This document shows positions 27,448 to 59,683 of a stretch of 64,000 nt of DNA, in pieces. The notes under the pieces were generated by a model. That model was not told the DNA's origin. It saw only the letters and a list, made by a program, of their open reading frames with translations, and searched no databases. The position numbers and the translations under genes were made by a program. Origin of the DNA: Nonlabens ulvanivorans (GTDB lineage: Bacteria > Bacteroidota > Bacteroidia > Flavobacteriales > Flavobacteriaceae); the NCBI RefSeq assembly GCF_000732625.1, contig NZ_JPJI01000012.1:59257-123256 (forward strand), in the 5' to 3' direction. Position 1 is the stretch's first letter, and every line of letters begins with the position of its first letter.

Positions 27448-27486
27448 GTGCCTTGTTATGAAATTTATAAATTTACCGCATTAAAA

Positions 27487-27510
27487 AAGGCAGGAAAATA
27501 TTCCTGCCTT
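27487..27510. terminator. Second hairpin after typA
   Basis: AAGGCAGGAA/TTCCTGCCTT stem followed by CTTTT. Possible backup terminator. The stretch 27511-27854 that follows holds no gene I can support; it is AT-rich with long T runs and one TGTTACCC site at 27782. Confidence 0.5.
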
Positions 27511-27854
27511 CTTTTAAAAAATGGTCTCCCCAATTAATAGTAGAACCTAATAATCACCATCTTCTAATTTTTACTTTTGATTAATCTATCATAAGATTAG
27601 TAATCAATTATAATATCTAGGTTTGAATAACCAGTCCTGCTTATAGGGATAGACAGTGTCTTTATTAAAAATTAAATTTTATAAAGAAATTGACTGGTTT
27701 ATTATTCTTACTCTTTTTATTAATGTTTTAAAACAACAGTTTAACTGTCTTTTCATAGTAGTGTTCCTCATTAGTAGATTTTGTTACCCAACAATTTTAA
27801 TTTTTTTTCAATTTTTTTTTAATTCATTATTAACGTCTATTTTTTTAAAAAAAA

Positions 27855-27915: not shown

Positions 27916-28452
27916 TTACTTTATGATTAATTTCTCGACTTTTTTGCCTTTTGAAGTCTGAAAACTCACAAAGTATACTCCTTTTTTTAAGATGTCTTTA
28001 CCATCCCAGGTTTTTTTATAAATCGATTCTTTATAATCAGGGATATCAATTATCTCTACTTCAATACCGTTTAGGTTGTAAATAATAATCTTATGAAGTT
28101 TGATATCACTAGATTCAAATGTGAATGTGGTTACACCATTACTAGGATTTGGTGAGATTTTGGTATTTCCTATATTTTCATTTTTAGGTACTATACCTAT
28201 ACCTCTACAAGTTTGACATACTTTGGCAGTCCAGATTGGTTCTCTGAAATCTGGACATATAGTTCCTACACGATAACTTAAGCAATATGCAGTTGCCGGT
28301 ATTAATATTTGTAAACTAGTTCCAGTAACGTTAACTCTAGTAGTTGTTGGATGTTGATTGCTAGGACAACATTCTGGATCATTATAAGTGTATTCTACCA
28401 CTAATATTTGTGCATATAGAAACATAAAGCTACTAATAATTAATAAGGGCAT
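27916..28452 (-). CDS. Small T9SS type A cargo protein with damaged N-terminus
   Basis: 178 residues. The C-terminal sorting domain is clear: ISPNPSNGVTTFTFES near 98, IIIYNLNGIEVEIID near 120 and KKGVYFVSFQTSKGKKVEKLIIK at the end. The N-terminal half has six Cys (ECCPS, AYCLSY, TICPD, VCQTC) and no known domain. The signal peptide lacks the usual Lys-rich start: an upstream ATG AAA AAA CTA (28473) is in frame but is followed by two TAA stops before the ATG at 28452. The gene may therefore be recently disabled or start with a minimal signal. A TGTTACCC site lies upstream at 28567. Confidence 0.65.
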   Translation of the reverse strand: MPLLIISSFMFLYAQILVVEYTYNDPECCPSNQHPTTTRVNVTGTSLQILIPATAYCLSYRVGTICPDFREPIWTAKVCQTCRGIGIVPKNENIGNTKISPNPSNGVTTFTFESSDIKLHKIIIYNLNGIEVEIIDIPDYKESIYKKTWDGKDILKKGVYFVSFQTSKGKKVEKLIIK

Positions 28453-28638
28453 TATTTATTATAGTTTTTTCATGATAATTGATTTGGTTAGTTCCTACTC
28501 TGTTAAATGGGTTTTCAGAAAGTCTCCCAGAATGCATTCAATAGGTTGTTCTTTTAAAGAATCCTTTGTTACCCAGAACAGAGATTCTGAATAAATTTAT
28601 TAGACAAGTGGTCGTGAAATTGTGAAATGAAGTTGTTA

Positions 28639-28689: not shown

Positions 28690-31392
28690 TTATCCTTTAC
28701 GGGACTTTAAAAAGAAGAAAATCAGAAGAATAAGAATAAAAATTGCTGCAATCCAATAATATACATTATAGTTATCTAAAGAAATAGGTTGATTATCTCC
28801 CATGGCTTTTAATGAAGCCCAATAATATGGAGAAGCGTCTGACAGACTATGCTCTCTGAGGTATTTAAGTTTTGCATTGTGTAGGGCAGTAGAGACTCCT
28901 TGATTTTCTTCAATATTTTTGTAAAAATCCTCCACAATATAGGAAGTTGACTTATCACTGGTCTTCCATAAAGAGGCTACTACAGCTTGAGATCCTGTAT
29001 AGAAAAAACCTCTTGCCAGTGTCAAAGTGCCTTCACCTTGGATAATTTCTCCGATTGAAGTATCGCAAGCGCTTAAGAAAACAAGTTGAGCATTATTCTG
29101 TAAAGAATAAAGTTCTTTCATACCCATTTTACTATCATAAAAAGCTATAAATGGGTTCTCCCCAGAGCTAGCGTGTGTTGCTAAATGGATAATTTTGTAT
29201 CCATTTATGCGGTTCTTAAATGTGCTCTTAGTTGCTTTATTATTGATATAATTATCTCCTTTTATAAACTGATTTATCGAATTTATTTCTTCATTTGTAT
29301 TGTAAAGTTTGGGGAGTCCTATGGCATCAAATGTAGTAGGTGAGAAGCTTATCAGATTTTTTTTGGCCGTTCTATTAATAGCGGCATTACTTTTAGAAAA
29401 AGATAAGGAGTAAGCATAGTTAATTTGACTTTCATTAATTAGATACGTATGCTTTTTAATATCTGTGATTAATGCGTCGAAGGGTATATTCTGTAATTGG
29501 CCATCTGCAATAATTGTCGTTTTCTTAGATTTTATTTGGTCTTGAATTTCTTTTGGGAATAGTCTGTTATATATTGAATTAGCTTTCAGAGCATAATTTT
29601 CTATATCACTTTCGGTACTGAATGGCTGAGAGAGGAGTCTTAAGTATTGGGCTATTTCTATGCTTAATTTCCCTGCGTTTTCAAGTTCAAATATCTGAGC
29701 ATCTGAAGATGTTATTAATAAGCACATGAGGTGATCTTTAAATAGCACTTCCTTATTCCAGACATAAGAAATGACGATTTCGTTACTACTCAAGCTTTTC
29801 TGTACGTCTGATAGATTGGTTAATTGGTTAAGATAAGTTTTGCCTACACCTTCAGAATAATTTTTATTTATAGAATCGTCATATTTTTTTATTTCAAGAC
29901 GTTGATTAAGGATTGCTTTATTATAAAATTTTATCGAGTTAGAGTCCTTTTTTTTCTCAAGTTTTTTTTCATATTCTAATAGCTTGTCGTTCAAAAATCT
30001 TTTTCTGTTTTTTACAGATGAAGGTATGTCAATAGAGTTTTGTATTATATTTTCTGTAAGTAGAACGGCTTTATTTTTCTCGCTGTATACAAATGCTAGT
30101 GTTGGATTGTCAAGAATAAAGGAACAATAAACTGCATGATGATATACTTTTGAGGCTTCTTTGCGCCAGTACATTTTTGAGCTTTCTTCACTATTTGAAT
30201 CTTGGATGTAATCTATAAGAGAGTCGGCGGTTTGTAAATTTTTAAAGGCTTCAACTACATAAGTATTCTTTTTAGAGTCTTCATATTGCTGTAATAGTAT
30301 CTCTGCTTTTCTTGAAAGAGAATTGATAACACCGATTGGGTCTATAGCATCTTTGAAATCAACTAATGAAGGCTCATTAATTTTTATTTTATCATTTATA
30401 AAATTTACCTGTATGGCTTTATCTATAAAAATTAATGCATTTTTTCTATTTCCATTTTTCAATTCTAGATCTGCGATGTTTTTAAACACTCGATCCTTAG
30501 ATTCTATTGATAAAGTATAATCTAAACTTTTATTGAGATAATATTTTGCACTATCGATACCTTGCTTAATGTAAAGGTTACCTAAATTACCATATCCTAT
30601 ACCTATAGATGTTGAATCTATGTTTTTTATGGAGTGATTTAATAATTTTTGATAATATTTTTTAGCTTGATTAAAGTCATATGACTTTTCGTTATTGTAA
30701 TAATTTGCTAGATTATTGTAGAGGATAGATAATCTTCGGTCGTTCAGTTGATTCTTCCTGTTTATCTCTAGAACTTTATTTAAAATTTTAAGTTCTTTTT
30801 CTTGAGACTGATCAGTATTTAAAGTGTGATATACTTTTGCTAGATTGAGATATTGGGATGCTAAAAAACCTGAAGCATTATAGTTTTCTAAATCAGAGAT
30901 AGCTTTTAGAAAGTAAACTTCTGCTTGATAATAGTCACCTAGTTTGTAATAGCAATCTCCTAGTTTACCATAAGATTGAATAGTTCTATAGGAATTAGGT
31001 TCTACCGAAATTATTTTACTATAACACTGTATCGCTATTTCAAGTTGAGCGGTTTGCTCATAGAAATAACCTAGTTGGTAAAGGGCTTTAGTATATTTTT
31101 CATTTATAATTTGAGCCTCTTCAAAAGATTTTACCTCTATAAGCGCATATTTAATTGCTGCTTCATAGTCTCTAAGTCTAAAGTATTTTACAGAAAAATC
31201 ATGAGACATTTCTGAAAATACAGTCTGGTCTGTAGTAATGCTTAATACACTATCTAGTTGAGGTTGTAACGCTTCAACACCTTTGTTTTTTTCAAATGAA
31301 TCAAATAGATCGTAAAAAGTTTGGCTACTTGCAGTATTGCCTAAGCAAAGTACAAGTAGCCAAAATATGATGCAATTAAAACTAGATTTCAA
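28690..31392 (-). CDS. TPR-CHAT caspase-like membrane protein
   Basis: 900 residues. Signal peptide (CIIFWLLVLCLGNTASSQ). Residues about 30-350 form tetratricopeptide repeats (for example ALYQLGYFYEQTAQLEIAIQCYSKII). A CHAT peptidase domain follows, with HLATHASSGENPF (His740) and LVFLSACDTSIGE (Cys776) as the caspase-type dyad, then GEGTLTLARGFFYTGSQAVVASLW. A C-terminal helix (WIAAIFILILLIFFFL) with a Lys/Arg tail anchors it in the inner membrane, placing TPR and protease in the periplasm. It follows a lipoprotein gene by 39 bases and diverges from an ECF sigma gene. Confidence 0.9.
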   Translation of the reverse strand: MKSSFNCIIFWLLVLCLGNTASSQTFYDLFDSFEKNKGVEALQPQLDSVLSITTDQTVFSEMSHDFSVKYFRLRDYEAAIKYALIEVKSFEEAQIINEKYTKALYQLGYFYEQTAQLEIAIQCYSKIISVEPNSYRTIQSYGKLGDCYYKLGDYYQAEVYFLKAISDLENYNASGFLASQYLNLAKVYHTLNTDQSQEKELKILNKVLEINRKNQLNDRRLSILYNNLANYYNNEKSYDFNQAKKYYQKLLNHSIKNIDSTSIGIGYGNLGNLYIKQGIDSAKYYLNKSLDYTLSIESKDRVFKNIADLELKNGNRKNALIFIDKAIQVNFINDKIKINEPSLVDFKDAIDPIGVINSLSRKAEILLQQYEDSKKNTYVVEAFKNLQTADSLIDYIQDSNSEESSKMYWRKEASKVYHHAVYCSFILDNPTLAFVYSEKNKAVLLTENIIQNSIDIPSSVKNRKRFLNDKLLEYEKKLEKKKDSNSIKFYNKAILNQRLEIKKYDDSINKNYSEGVGKTYLNQLTNLSDVQKSLSSNEIVISYVWNKEVLFKDHLMCLLITSSDAQIFELENAGKLSIEIAQYLRLLSQPFSTESDIENYALKANSIYNRLFPKEIQDQIKSKKTTIIADGQLQNIPFDALITDIKKHTYLINESQINYAYSLSFSKSNAAINRTAKKNLISFSPTTFDAIGLPKLYNTNEEINSINQFIKGDNYINNKATKSTFKNRINGYKIIHLATHASSGENPFIAFYDSKMGMKELYSLQNNAQLVFLSACDTSIGEIIQGEGTLTLARGFFYTGSQAVVASLWKTSDKSTSYIVEDFYKNIEENQGVSTALHNAKLKYLREHSLSDASPYYWASLKAMGDNQPISLDNYNVYYWIAAIFILILLIFFFLKSRKG

Positions 31393-31431
31393 AATCTTTA
31401 TATTGTGAAACCTAATTTACACATTTATAAT

Positions 31432-31809
31432 TTAAAAAGGTTCAAAGCTTGCAATGTCTATTACAGTTTCATCTTCTATCCATAAAACAGGATCAGTTGT
31501 TTCTGATTCAGATTGTTGTAATGATAGTTCCCATATCTCACCACTGTGAATGTTTTCATCAATAGTGTAGGAGTGTAGTATAAGGTAAGGATTAGAGTAT
31601 TTTAACTCTTCTCTTAAATGAGTTTGTTGATCTTTTGTTGCGTTTGATTCCCAGCTTACGTATAGTTTTAACTTAGCTGTATTACTTTTTAATTGTAGAC
31701 TAGAATTCTGTAAAGTTAAATCATCTTCTTCAAGAGAATTAACACTACAAGAAGTGATAGTTAACGAGATAATTGAGCACAAAAGTAATTTTAAAAATAA
31801 ATTTTTCAT
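31432..31809 (-). CDS. Lipoprotein cotranscribed with the CHAT protease
   Basis: 125 residues. Signal with lipobox TITSC at about residue 21. The mature part is acidic, with no family I recognise; KLKLYVSWESNATKDQQTHLREELKY and GEIWELSLQQ suggest a small mixed alpha/beta fold. It is first in the transcript with the CHAT gene and could be a substrate, sensor or inhibitor of it. Repeated GGGTAACA elements lie 26-64 bases upstream of its start. Confidence 0.65.
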   Translation of the reverse strand: MKNLFLKLLLCSIISLTITSCSVNSLEEDDLTLQNSSLQLKSNTAKLKLYVSWESNATKDQQTHLREELKYSNPYLILHSYTIDENIHSGEIWELSLQQSESETTDPVLWIEDETVIDIASFEPF

Positions 31810-31834
31810 AAAAGTAGGGTTTTATAATTTAGGA

Positions 31835-31873
31835 TGTTACCCTACTGTTACAAAGAGTTGTTTTTTGTTACCC
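31835..31873. promoter_or_regulatory. TGTTACCC repeats in the CHAT/ECF divergent promoter region
   Basis: TGTTACCC at 31835-31842 and 31866-31873 with a half-like TGTTACAA at 31846. Read toward the lipoprotein gene they are GGGTAACA, containing the AAC typical of ECF -35 elements. Further copies at 27782, 28567 and (inside the sigma gene) 32190. Confidence 0.45.
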
Positions 31874-31902
31874 TTAAAATTAAACTCTTTATGATTTACT
31901 TA

Positions 31903-31910
31903 TATATTTG
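31903..31910 (+). promoter_or_regulatory. -7 element of the ECF sigma gene
   Basis: TATATTTG six bases before the ATG, implying a very short leader. No TTG at the expected distance. Confidence 0.3.
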
Positions 31911-31915
31911 TTCAA

Positions 31916-32479
31916 ATGGCAGATGATTTAAAATACTTAAGAGCCTTATTAACGAGTGACTCTGCTGTGATTTCAGAACTCTATAAGGATACCTTGCCTA
32001 AGGTGAAAAAATTTGTGGTTCAAAATAAAGGTTGCGTTGAAGATGCCGAGGATATTTTCCAAAAGGCATTAGTTCAAATAGCCGTTAGATATAAAAAGAA
32101 TCCGTTTTCAATTAAATCTAGTTTCAAGGCTTTTTTATTTACTGCATGTAAGAATTTGTGGAGAAGAGAGCTAAATAAATCTTCACATTGGGTAACAAAA
32201 GATATAGAGGAGGAACAGTTCTATATAAAAAATGAAGATGCACATGTTTTATTAGAACAAGAACGATTAGAATTATTTCAAGTAGCCTTGGATCTGAGTT
32301 CAGATAACTGCAAGTCTATTCTTGAAATGTTTTTTAATGATGTATCCTATGCTGATATGGTAAAAGATTTGGCATATAGTTCTGAAACAGTCGCAAGACA
32401 ACGTGTCTTTAAATGCAAAAAGAAACTGATAGAGCTTATCAAAGACAGCCCTAGATTTAATGCCCTAAGAGAATTATGA
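31916..32479 (+). CDS. ECF-type RNA polymerase sigma factor
   Basis: 187 residues. Region 2 is visible as VEDAEDIFQKALVQIAVRY and SFKAFLFTACKNLWRREL (residues about 40-85). Region 4 is near 125-165: CKSILEMFFNDVSYADMVKDLAYSSETVARQRVFKCKKKL, with the second helix of the HTH in SSETVARQRV. It belongs to the Bacteroidota ECF group that pairs with TPR membrane proteins. The four-base overlap with the next gene couples it to its likely anti-sigma partner. It diverges from the CHAT operon, its probable target. Confidence 0.88.
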   Translation: MADDLKYLRALLTSDSAVISELYKDTLPKVKKFVVQNKGCVEDAEDIFQKALVQIAVRYKKNPFSIKSSFKAFLFTACKNLWRRELNKSSHWVTKDIEEEQFYIKNEDAHVLLEQERLELFQVALDLSSDNCKSILEMFFNDVSYADMVKDLAYSSETVARQRVFKCKKKLIELIKDSPRFNALREL

Positions 32480-33276
32480 TCACGCCAGACAACCTTTTAC
32501 TTGAAAAGTACTTTAAAAATTCCTTAACTCATGAGGAACATGCTCAATTTGAAATAAGGAAGAAAGATTCAAAATTTGTGGAACAATTAATAATTGAACA
32601 ACAATTGCATGATACATTCCATAAGGCAGGTTGGAGCTTTGCTAATAATGTAGATAAAACTGTTATATCTGAATATCAAGAATTATTTAATGATGAAGAC
32701 ATTGTTAACCTTAAAGCTACATTAAAGAATATCGATCATTCTAGTGAACCTATAAAGTCGAGGTATGATTTCAGGTGGAAACATCTTATATATGCTGCTG
32801 CTGCATCGGTCGTTATCATTATAAGTGTATCTCAATTCAATGGGACTAATTCGACTCCAGATCATGTTTATGCTACCTATTTAGATAAAAACCAGCTTAC
32901 ATATTCTATAGTGAGAGATGGTGATAGTCAGAGTGCGCTTGATGAGGCTACTGCATTATTCATAGATGAAAAATATAAAGAGGCTATGCCTATTATTGAA
33001 AATTCAATTATTACATCACAAGAAAACTTACCAGCCTTCTATCTTTTAAAGGGAATATCTTTGATGGAAATGGGGTCTTATGACGATGCCATCATCGCAT
33101 ATGATCAATTGATATCTAGTGATTTCCTTGATGCAGAGAAGGGATATTGGTATAAAGGGCTCCTATATCTTAAAAAAGGCGACGAAAAGAAAGCTCTCAT
33201 GATATTTAATAAAATAAGAAAGGAACATTTATACAATGCTGGTAAAGCGACTGAAATTATCGAGTTGCTTAATTAA
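32476..33276 (+). CDS. TPR membrane protein, probable anti-sigma factor
   Basis: 266 residues. The cytoplasmic N-terminus (about 95 residues, LLEKYFKNSLTHEEHAQFEIRKK) resembles the sigma-binding part of anti-sigma proteins. One membrane helix follows (LIYAAAASVVIIISVSQF, residues about 98-115), then periplasmic TPR repeats (AFYLLKGISLMEMGSYDDAI; GYWYKGLLYLKKGDEKKAL). The overlap with the ECF gene supports a regulatory pair. The TPR region could meet the TPR-CHAT protein in the periplasm; this is inferred. Confidence 0.75.
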   Translation: MITPDNLLLEKYFKNSLTHEEHAQFEIRKKDSKFVEQLIIEQQLHDTFHKAGWSFANNVDKTVISEYQELFNDEDIVNLKATLKNIDHSSEPIKSRYDFRWKHLIYAAAASVVIIISVSQFNGTNSTPDHVYATYLDKNQLTYSIVRDGDSQSALDEATALFIDEKYKEAMPIIENSIITSQENLPAFYLLKGISLMEMGSYDDAIIAYDQLISSDFLDAEKGYWYKGLLYLKKGDEKKALMIFNKIRKEHLYNAGKATEIIELLN

Positions 33277-58222: not shown

Positions 58223-59683
58223 TTATGAATATTTTTTAATTAGGTCTGCTGCTAATTTTCCAGAAATAAGAGAAGGCGGTACCCCAGGTCCCGGAACGGT
58301 AAGTTGACCAGTGAAATATAGATTTTTTACTTTTTTACTTTTAAGATTAGGTCGTAAGAAAGCAGTTTGTAATAAAGTGTTTGCCATACCATAAGCATTT
58401 CCTTTATAGCTATTGTATTCTGATTTAAAATCATTTACACAGAACGATTCTTTAAATATAATATGATTTGTGACGTTTTGCTGTGTTCTTTCTTCGAAAC
58501 GTTTGATAATAATATTGAAATATTTTTCTCTAAGTTCAGGCGTGTCCTCTAAACCAGGTGCTAGCGGTATTAGAAAAAAACCATTTTCACAGCCATCTGG
58601 TGCCGTGCTACTATCTGTTACTGATGTAAAGTTTGCATAAAACAATGGGTCTTCAGGCCATTGGGCATCTTCGTAGATTTCGTGCGCGTGTTTTTCAAAA
58701 TCAGTATCAAAGAATAAATTGTGATGTTCAATATTTTTTAGTTTTTTGTCAAAACCAACATAGAAGATTAATGAGCTGGGTGCAAAAGTCTTCTTTTCCC
58801 AATAAGCTTCAGAATATTGCCTGTTTTTTTGAGGTAATAGGGTTTCTGAATGATGATAATCTGCGCCAGAAAGAATGATATCAAATGTTAACCTCTCATC
58901 ATTTACTTCAATACCTATAGCATGATTCTTATCATCCACTAATATTTTAGAAACAGCTGAGTTGGTGTGAATGGTTACTCCTTGTTCTTTTGCCAGCTGT
59001 TCCATTGCTAGTATAACTTCATACATTCCTCCTTTGGGATGCCATGTGCCTAGTCCAAAATCAGCATAATTCATAAAATTATAAAAACTAGGTGTGTTAC
59101 CTGGAGTAGCGCCTAAAAATAATACCGGGAATTCTAGAATAGATATTAGTTTAGGATTGGTAAATTTTTTACGAACATCTCTTGATACATTACTTACAAA
59201 TGCTCCTAGCTTTTTTACGGTCTGAGGTGTTACTAACTCTAGTGGAGATTCTCCTGGCCTGTAGACAAGCTTTTTAATGGCTATGTCATAGTTTTCTTTT
59301 GCATTATCTATGAAGTCTTGAAGGTAAACAGAACTTCCTCTCTCTATGCGTTCAAATGTATTTTTAATAGTACTTAAGTTATCTCCTATAACAATTGATT
59401 CATCTTTAAATACGACTGTATATGCAGGGCTTAATTTATCTAATTCATAATAATCAGAAGGCATTTTACCAAAATCAGCAAAAAAACGTTCAAATATATC
59501 TGGCATCCAGTACCAAGAAGGTCCTATGTCAAATGTAAAACCATTTTTAACTAATCTTCTAGCTCGTCCACCAACGGTATTGTTTTTTTCGTATATCGTG
59601 ACATCATTACCTGCTCGAGCTAAATAGCTAGCAGCAGAAAGAGAAGCGAAACCAGAACCTATTATTGCTATTTTTTTGCTCAT
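58223..59683 (-). CDS. crtI: Phytoene desaturase CrtI
   Basis: 486 residues. FAD motif KIAIIGSGFASLSAASYLARAG near 4, VGGRARRLVKNGFTFDIGPSWYWMPDIF near 37-64, GMYEVILAMEQLAKEQGV near 220, C-terminal YFTGQLTVPGPGVPPSLISGKLAADLI. Converts phytoene to lycopene by repeated desaturation. Overlaps the MerR regulator gene by four bases at the head of the operon. Confidence 0.94.
   Translation of the reverse strand: MSKKIAIIGSGFASLSAASYLARAGNDVTIYEKNNTVGGRARRLVKNGFTFDIGPSWYWMPDIFERFFADFGKMPSDYYELDKLSPAYTVVFKDESIVIGDNLSTIKNTFERIERGSSVYLQDFIDNAKENYDIAIKKLVYRPGESPLELVTPQTVKKLGAFVSNVSRDVRKKFTNPKLISILEFPVLFLGATPGNTPSFYNFMNYADFGLGTWHPKGGMYEVILAMEQLAKEQGVTIHTNSAVSKILVDDKNHAIGIEVNDERLTFDIILSGADYHHSETLLPQKNRQYSEAYWEKKTFAPSSLIFYVGFDKKLKNIEHHNLFFDTDFEKHAHEIYEDAQWPEDPLFYANFTSVTDSSTAPDGCENGFFLIPLAPGLEDTPELREKYFNIIIKRFEERTQQNVTNHIIFKESFCVNDFKSEYNSYKGNAYGMANTLLQTAFLRPNLKSKKVKNLYFTGQLTVPGPGVPPSLISGKLAADLIKKYS

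Follow-up and report, generated by a model that had tools for sequence, protein, structure and literature searches.

What is the role of a CHAT protease that is encoded next to an extracytoplasmic function (ECF) sigma factor and a putative membrane-embedded inhibitor of this factor? The question is raised by a locus of the marine bacterium Nonlabens ulvanivorans (RefSeq assembly GCF_000732625.1), which we have analyzed within a window of 64,000 nucleotides covering positions 59,257 to 123,256 of the forward strand of contig NZ_JPJI01000012.1 and whose numbering is used throughout. On its minus strand, the locus carries the genes of a 900-residue protein combining tetratricopeptide repeats (TPR) with a CHAT domain (28690..31392) and of a small lipoprotein of 125 residues (31432..31809). 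On the plus strand it carries the genes of an ECF sigma factor of 187 residues (31916..32479) and of an anti-sigma-like TPR protein of 266 residues (32476..33276), which overlap by four bases. We propose that these genes encode an envelope signalling module, where a periplasmic CHAT protease would relieve the anti-sigma factor, an assignment to which we give slightly less than even weight. The proposal builds on a conserved gene linkage, a retained catalytic dyad, a shared promoter-like motif and selection on a copy of this motif inside the sigma gene.

An initial annotation of the sequence had treated the four genes as one module and had named the conservation of their neighbourhood in Bacteroidota as a check. 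Open reading frames (ORFs) and domain matches confirm that the four genes are real. The CHAT protein, whose ORF as called starts with a TTG codon, matches the Pfam models of CHAT (1.9e-50) and TPR, the sigma protein those of Sigma70_r2 in Pfam (30.3, cut-off 24) and of the sigma70-ECF superfamily in NCBIfam (49.6, cut-off 42.9) and the anti-sigma-like protein that of TPR. For a view on conservation, we have searched 247 genomes of the phylum with the CHAT model of Pfam, which has matches in 126 of them, and with a profile built from 19 anti-sigma proteins. A sample taken from the CHAT side consists of 78 named loci (denoted by L numbers) from the best 80 matches, which are close relatives of the CHAT protein of the window, and of these 76 were ORF-called (all except L159 and L172). 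An ECF-anti-sigma pair is found in 66 of the 76 loci and in 58 of the 60 that extend at least 6 kb to either side, the two exceptions being L214 and L211, the latter having an ECF match at its edge. The paired loci are predominantly divergent (50), with 13 convergent and 3 same-strand arrangements, and unpaired ECF matches occur at a density of 4 per 1.30 Mb. The linkage of CHAT to the ECF-anti-sigma pair is thus far beyond chance. From the anti-sigma side, we have used the 69 best matches, omitting four of the same E range with frames of 406 or 1008-1010 residues. CHAT was located from 150 matches listed across the phylum and, for the other anti-sigma loci, in directly fetched surroundings. 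In this way, 51 of the 69 were found to have CHAT nearby (31 listed within 10 kb, 19 in fetched surroundings and one in a second module of the N. ulvanivorans genome), and seven have no adjacent ECF gene. Some places are represented twice, with certainty L080/L145, which share identical sigma proteins, and likely L079/L144, L083/L187 and G021:C232/L206 (G numbers denote genomes). The motif and codon counts given below include both L080 and L145, and the thinned sets (21/22 and 38/60) are free of duplicates.

The predicted topologies place the CHAT protein and the TPR region of the anti-sigma-like protein on the same side of the membrane, in agreement with the initial annotation. The CHAT protein is predicted to start with a signal peptide, which is followed by TPR, the CHAT domain with His740 and Cys776 and a C-terminal transmembrane segment at about residues 876-899. 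Among 102 ECF-paired CHAT proteins, such a segment is predicted in 98 and a net positive C-terminal tail is present in 97, and an N-terminal hydrophobic segment exceeds a crude threshold in only 65. The previously described His740/Cys776 dyad is numbered correctly and its equivalents are retained in 115 of 116 homologues, with the remaining one containing a gap. In the model of the anti-sigma-like protein, a helical N-terminal domain precedes a transmembrane segment (residues 99-121), a low-confidence linker containing Arg147 and a TPR domain (residues 152-265). A transmembrane segment is predicted within residues 50-150 in 108 of 110 ECF-paired anti-sigma proteins, none of the 110 has a signal-like N-terminus, and in 108 of 108 the number of Lys and Arg residues is higher before than after the segment. 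The protein is accordingly predicted to span the membrane once, with its N-terminus inside and its TPR domain in the periplasm. The linker position of Arg147 is basic in 115 of 125 sequences (Arg in 101, Lys in 14).

Pfam matches and fold comparison both support a TPR plus CHAT fold of the 900-residue protein. Its structure model (predicted local distance difference test 84, predicted template modelling score 0.75) is closest to the TPR-CHAT protease Csx29 of Craspase (8eex_B, Z 31.0 over 567 residues, root mean square deviation (rmsd) 8.2), followed by separase (5u1s_A, Z 28.2 over 502 residues). The anti-sigma factor DdvA from Myxococcus (8rw5) is matched with a Z of 23.5 over 574 residues (rmsd 11.0), which is not far above the background of repeat proteins, since proteins consisting only of TPR reach a Z of 21.0 in the same list. 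Used as a profile on its own, the CHAT region recovers Craspase (2.2e-5) and DdvA, a chain named CHAT domain-containing (0.03), among solved structures. Conversely, the full-length profile returned TPR-type repeat proteins alone and neither Csx29 nor separase among the best 60 of 220 matches, and Csx29 is thus recovered solely by the isolated CHAT region or by fold. Three loci (L160, L161, L190) combine one ECF-anti-sigma pair with two or three CHAT genes in tandem, most of which are preceded by a small protein of their own. At L156 (6215-7822), a VKOR-thioredoxin-peptidase C39 protein, assigned by Pfam at this locus only, is encoded immediately 3' of CHAT with the promoter-like motif described below upstream, and L157, L158, L163 and L168 contain ORFs akin to it by their N-terminus.

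The position directly 5' of CHAT is occupied by alternative partners. For 86 CHAT genes, the preceding gene codes for a small protein of less than 240 residues in 40 cases, for a subtilase as judged by motifs in 25 and for other proteins in 8, with none found in 13. The small proteins include the anti-sigma factor itself at L218 and a 60-residue ORF at L180, where a Peptidase_S8 subtilase is located farther upstream. Six of the 25 subtilases were scanned (L082, L162, L201, L207, L177 and L210) and all contain Pfam Peptidase_S8, and none of six scanned small proteins has a Pfam match. In a single profile comparison, 38 mature small proteins match the region preceding the catalytic Asp of the 25 subtilases (probability 96.4, E 1.2e-9). 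In light of this resemblance, the small lipoprotein is best read as a stand-alone version of this N-terminal region. In the window, its lipobox-like signal ends at Cys21. The tests for lipoboxes and hydrophobicity are both crude, and the small-lipoprotein pattern is passed by only 20 of 82 upstream proteins, with many others containing a Cys after a hydrophobic stretch.

The regions between the divergent genes share a promoter-like motif, GGGTAACA-N15-NAAC, which was found by eye. In the window it is located upstream of the lipoprotein-CHAT operon (31847..31873, minus strand), and this placement lends support to the sigma-factor output that had been suggested earlier. Within 450 nt beside the sigma start, 47 of 69 divergent loci have GGGTAAC pointing to CHAT and 3 of 69 have it pointing to the ECF gene. 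The sigma gene start itself is preceded by TATATTTG; the consensus of the flavobacterial -7 element is TAnnTTTG. The two-part pattern occurs 99 times, compared to 3-10 times for eight other 7-mers, in the ORF-called L144-L221 together with the window, L078, L080 and L081, which are the loci of motif discovery. In the 3.2 Mb genome there are six strict matches, four of which are confined to 4.5 kb of the module. A reversed-pattern control is matched 4 times in this genome and, in 13 further genomes, 2 to 11 times, which often exceeds the count of the motif itself, so that single genomic matches mean little and it is the cluster that counts. The module contains four sites each in G001, G003, G016 and G021 and three in G007, and eight chosen genomes without module contain 1-4 scattered matches each. 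The two strict matches of N. ulvanivorans outside the module lie inside an ORF at L222, which we take to be uvrA-like, and at L227, just before the gene of a predicted secreted protein, a possible further member of the regulon.

A further copy of the motif resides within the coding sequence of the sigma factor, 286 nt 5' of the anti-sigma start (32190..32216, plus strand), and the sigma genes of many relatives contain it at a position that is identical or nearly so. Codon usage at this site indicates that the motif is under selection at synonymous positions. The codons GTA-ACA are used in 56 of 57 sigma genes with Val-Thr at this position, where 8.2 are expected from codon usage, and in 21 of 22 sequences that are less than 70% identical, compared to 184 of 1155 Val-Thr pairs overall in these loci, sites included. 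The Arg preceding Val-Thr is encoded by an xGG codon in 29 of 29 cases (mean share 0.13) and the Leu at the second half of the motif by a C-initial codon in 30 of 30 (mean share 0.38), with this second half being AAC in only 37 of 57 sigma genes. Intragenic and intergenic 7-mers are matched as GGGTAAC/GGGTAAC in 38 cases and as GGGTAAT/GGGTAAT in 5, with no crossed pairs and with five GGGTAAC sigma genes lacking an intergenic match. A sigma gene's own 7-mer is present in its own divergent region in 46 of 69 loci (permuted mean 31.6, 0 of 5000 permutations as high) and, after dropping sigma proteins that are more than 85% identical, in 38 of 60 (permuted mean 25.1, 0 of 5000 as high). Two clades have changed the intragenic copy together with the intergenic one.

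The two other motif sites of the window, which like those described above had been overlooked in the initial annotation, are located 3' of CHAT. One (28548..28574, minus strand) is found upstream of a gene for a surface protein with a sorting domain of the type IX secretion system (T9SS), also missed previously, which Pfam and NCBIfam scans and a comparison with relatives define as an apparently decayed remnant (27916..28452, minus strand). The equivalent gene codes for 991-1008 residues in G016, G003 and G007, and is split over two frames in G001. In the assembly of N. ulvanivorans, most of it is missing and its original start runs into a stop. The other site (27763..27789, minus strand) precedes a candidate small RNA with a terminator-like hairpin at its end (27483..27763, ends approximate, minus strand). 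The region following this site is kept in G000, G016, G003 and G001, and G021 contains the motif together with a similar but diverged sequence, whereas G007 lacks the site. We thus describe a candidate for a structured RNA kept in four Nonlabens genomes and perhaps a fifth, which would be expressed from this motif. Its folding energy of -68.4 kcal/mol compares to a mean of -44.1 for shuffled sequences (z -6.0), the strong terminator hairpin included. The four sequences are near-invariant, with one doubly changed pair. Six covarying pairs that emerge on adding G021 were not relied on because its row looks shifted in the alignment. No match to the candidate was obtained in Rfam at gathering score, and eight matches below this threshold are attributed to chance. 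The reading as a short peptide was discarded in favor of an RNA since the ATG is lost in two of the four aligned genomes. In G007 only, the conserved core of the candidate has a same-strand resemblance to 34-37 nt of the T9SS gene (L080:1480-1600, minus strand). Across the loci, 6 of 30 neighbouring proteins contain a T9SS sorting domain, a number that does not provide a rate as the proteins were picked by hand. Other picked neighbours carry PKD, FG-GAP, laminin-G, YadA-head, OmpA or subtilase domains, several have no match, and one AcrB-type transporter and one OmpH-like protein are also among them. With motif copies before CHAT, the anti-sigma gene, the T9SS gene and the RNA, and rarely before the sigma gene, the arrangement points to two feedback loops, a positive one acting via CHAT and a negative one acting via the anti-sigma factor.

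Within the genus, the module is a discrete cassette. It is flanked by bipA, a FemAB-like gene (NCBIfam, below cut-off) and DegT-like and flippase-like genes, where bipA, DegT and the flippase are presumed identities from inspection of the ORFs. Genes for bipA and the FemAB-like protein are present in 23 of 23 genomes of the genus and enclose the module in five, with their matches being separated by 5,971 bp here and by 8,052-8,392 bp in G001, G003, G007 and G016. In ten genomes (G005, G006, G009, G010, G012, G013, G014, G018, G019, G022), both are only 95-715 bp apart, in G021 the module is present on split contigs and in the remaining seven genomes the two genes lie away from each other or on separate contigs. 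The named loci nearest to the CHAT protein of the window are from Nonlabens xylanidelens and strain BBFL7, as judged from the best 80 matches. In G001 (L077), where the sigma gene is broken into two ORFs and the CHAT frame contains three stops, the module may be decaying. The second module of the N. ulvanivorans genome (L076, G000:C23:56000-73000) comprises ECF, anti-sigma and CHAT genes together with the genes of a T9SS-sorted protein of 534 residues and of OmpA, and its intergenic regions show, by eye, GTTAAC-type sites instead of GGGTAAC.

Based on these features, we envisage a mechanism where the single-pass anti-sigma protein would tether the ECF sigma factor to the inner membrane through its cytoplasmic domain and expose its TPR domain to the periplasm. 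An envelope signal, perhaps conveyed by the partner lipoprotein or subtilase or by the state of surface-protein export, would activate the membrane-anchored periplasmic TPR-CHAT protease, which would then cut the periplasmic part of the anti-sigma protein, possibly in its flexible linker, and further proteolysis would free the sigma factor. The liberated sigma factor would transcribe the genes of a T9SS surface protein and of a small RNA along with two targets that feed back on its activity, the lipoprotein-CHAT operon (positively) and, from a promoter within the sigma gene, the anti-sigma gene (negatively). That the ECF sigma factor recognizes the motif, that CHAT cleaves the anti-sigma protein, that an activating signal exists and that the RNA is expressed are steps that we infer. 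A precedent for the cleavage is provided by Csx29, the closest fold to CHAT, whose substrate is an inhibitor of an ECF-like sigma factor.

Several observations weigh against such a role of the protease. In 11 of the 69 anti-sigma loci, an ECF gene is present with no CHAT gene within about 9 kb, indicating that some pairs do without CHAT and that the protease may be an output instead of the activator. Arg147, which we have considered as CHAT cleavage site, provides no CHAT-specific evidence, as the basic residue is equally conserved in pairs without CHAT (12 of 12) and in pairs with CHAT (91 of 101). Foldseek returned nothing for the anti-sigma model at E <= 0.001 and weak, mostly TPR matches beyond, and kinship to Csx30 was thus not found, with neither Csx30 nor another anti-sigma protein being matched by fold (best 50 matches) or profile (best 60). 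The proposed regulation is affected likewise, as the motif was noticed by eye in the same loci that were used for most of the motif counts. Of the 21 sigma genes carrying another 7-mer, nine face GGGTAAC, one GGGTAAT and 11 neither, and once GGGTAAC genes are excluded the intragenic 7-mer recurs in the own divergent region in only 8 of 26 cases. Finally, the shifted motif variants define two clades, and the joint change thus rests on about two events.

Part of this evidence would fit the main competing view, which we regard as possible although on the doubtful side, that CHAT is an output of the regulon, a sigma-induced envelope protease for surface or T9SS cargo or for the partner lipoprotein, with the anti-sigma factor being switched by another protease. 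It would account for the asymmetry by which 11 pairs lack CHAT, whereas CHAT without a pair is rare (2 of 60), for the motif carried by the CHAT operon, for the two or three CHAT ORFs per single ECF pair in the tandem loci and for the retention of Arg147 without CHAT. The initial annotation had named pairs without CHAT in relatives, together with a CHAT operon not responding to the sigma factor, as an argument against its proposal. Such pairs do exist, whereas the reverse case is rare. An output role is at odds with the solved TPR-CHAT relative of known substrate, which cuts an inhibitor of an ECF sigma factor, and with the predicted face-to-face arrangement of anti-sigma and CHAT in the periplasm. 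Alternatively, CHAT could mainly act as sensor or scaffold that binds the TPR domain of the anti-sigma protein and alters its grip without cutting, as imaginable for DdvA, whose CHAT-annotated chain illustrates that a CHAT-like domain is possible within an anti-sigma factor. We consider this improbable since the nearly invariant dyad argues for catalysis and the DdvA match does not go far beyond that of TPR-only proteins. Even less probable is the circuit for cell death or anti-phage defence that had been proposed initially with reference to CHAT-based defence proteins. Although the CHAT protease Csx29 acts in type III-E CRISPR, the protease of the module is predicted to be periplasmic from its signal peptide and its membrane anchor, the cassette sits between bipA and a FemAB-like gene and some of the cargo of related modules consists of surface proteins. 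A PADLOC search with the four proteins yielded no defence-specific match and, apart from a weak hit of the CHAT protein to a TPR model (0.0015), no match at all, a result where a missing model would be compatible with a defence role.

Parts of the described organization are already known from Craspase, DdvA and the ECF54 group, and it is the split periplasmic module and the intragenic site that appear to be new. Among the matches listed in our literature search, no paper was found on the module in Bacteroidota, the split periplasmic form or the intragenic site. Csx29 from the type III-E Craspase cleaves Csx30, which inhibits the ECF-like sigma factor CASP-sigma (PMC10028731). Common to both systems are the TPR-CHAT fold with its His-Cys dyad and the association with an ECF sigma factor and an inhibitor. 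In contrast to Craspase, the CHAT protein described here is predicted to be periplasmic and membrane-anchored, and its inhibitor-like partner spans the membrane, carries TPR and showed no similarity to Csx30 among the best 50 fold matches. The same paper also describes regulated proteolysis of the RseA-DegS type, where an envelope protease cuts a membrane anti-sigma factor to free an ECF sigma factor (PMC10028731). The module shares these three components, with cleavage being presumed, and differs from RseA-DegS by its CHAT cysteine protease and TPR domain. In Myxococcus xanthus, the ECF sigma factor DdvS is paired with DdvA, an anti-sigma factor that spans the membrane (PMC4374960), as in the module; in the DdvA chain CHAT and anti-sigma appear joined, whereas they are separate proteins here. 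For ECF54, CHAT and subtilase genes are reported in the neighbourhood of the sigma genes (PMC8999054), a context that is partly found in our loci. Unlike in that description, the anti-sigma-like gene of the module overlaps the sigma gene.

If the proposed mechanism was true, envelope signalling would be a common role of CHAT proteases in Bacteroidota, and a natural counterpart of the protease-sigma circuit of CRISPR would exist outside of CRISPR. More speculatively, the module may be a widespread periplasmic, non-CRISPR counterpart of the Csx29-Csx30-sigma circuit, where a caspase-like protease would free an envelope sigma factor that drives the protease, a surface protein and a small RNA and is self-limiting by an intragenic promoter. 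It could represent the type of circuit that gave rise to the CRISPR version by recruitment. The compact set of local motifs makes the module easy to test, and an intragenic sigma-type promoter for the anti-sigma factor that is kept at synonymous sites would provide a clean and testable case of built-in negative feedback.

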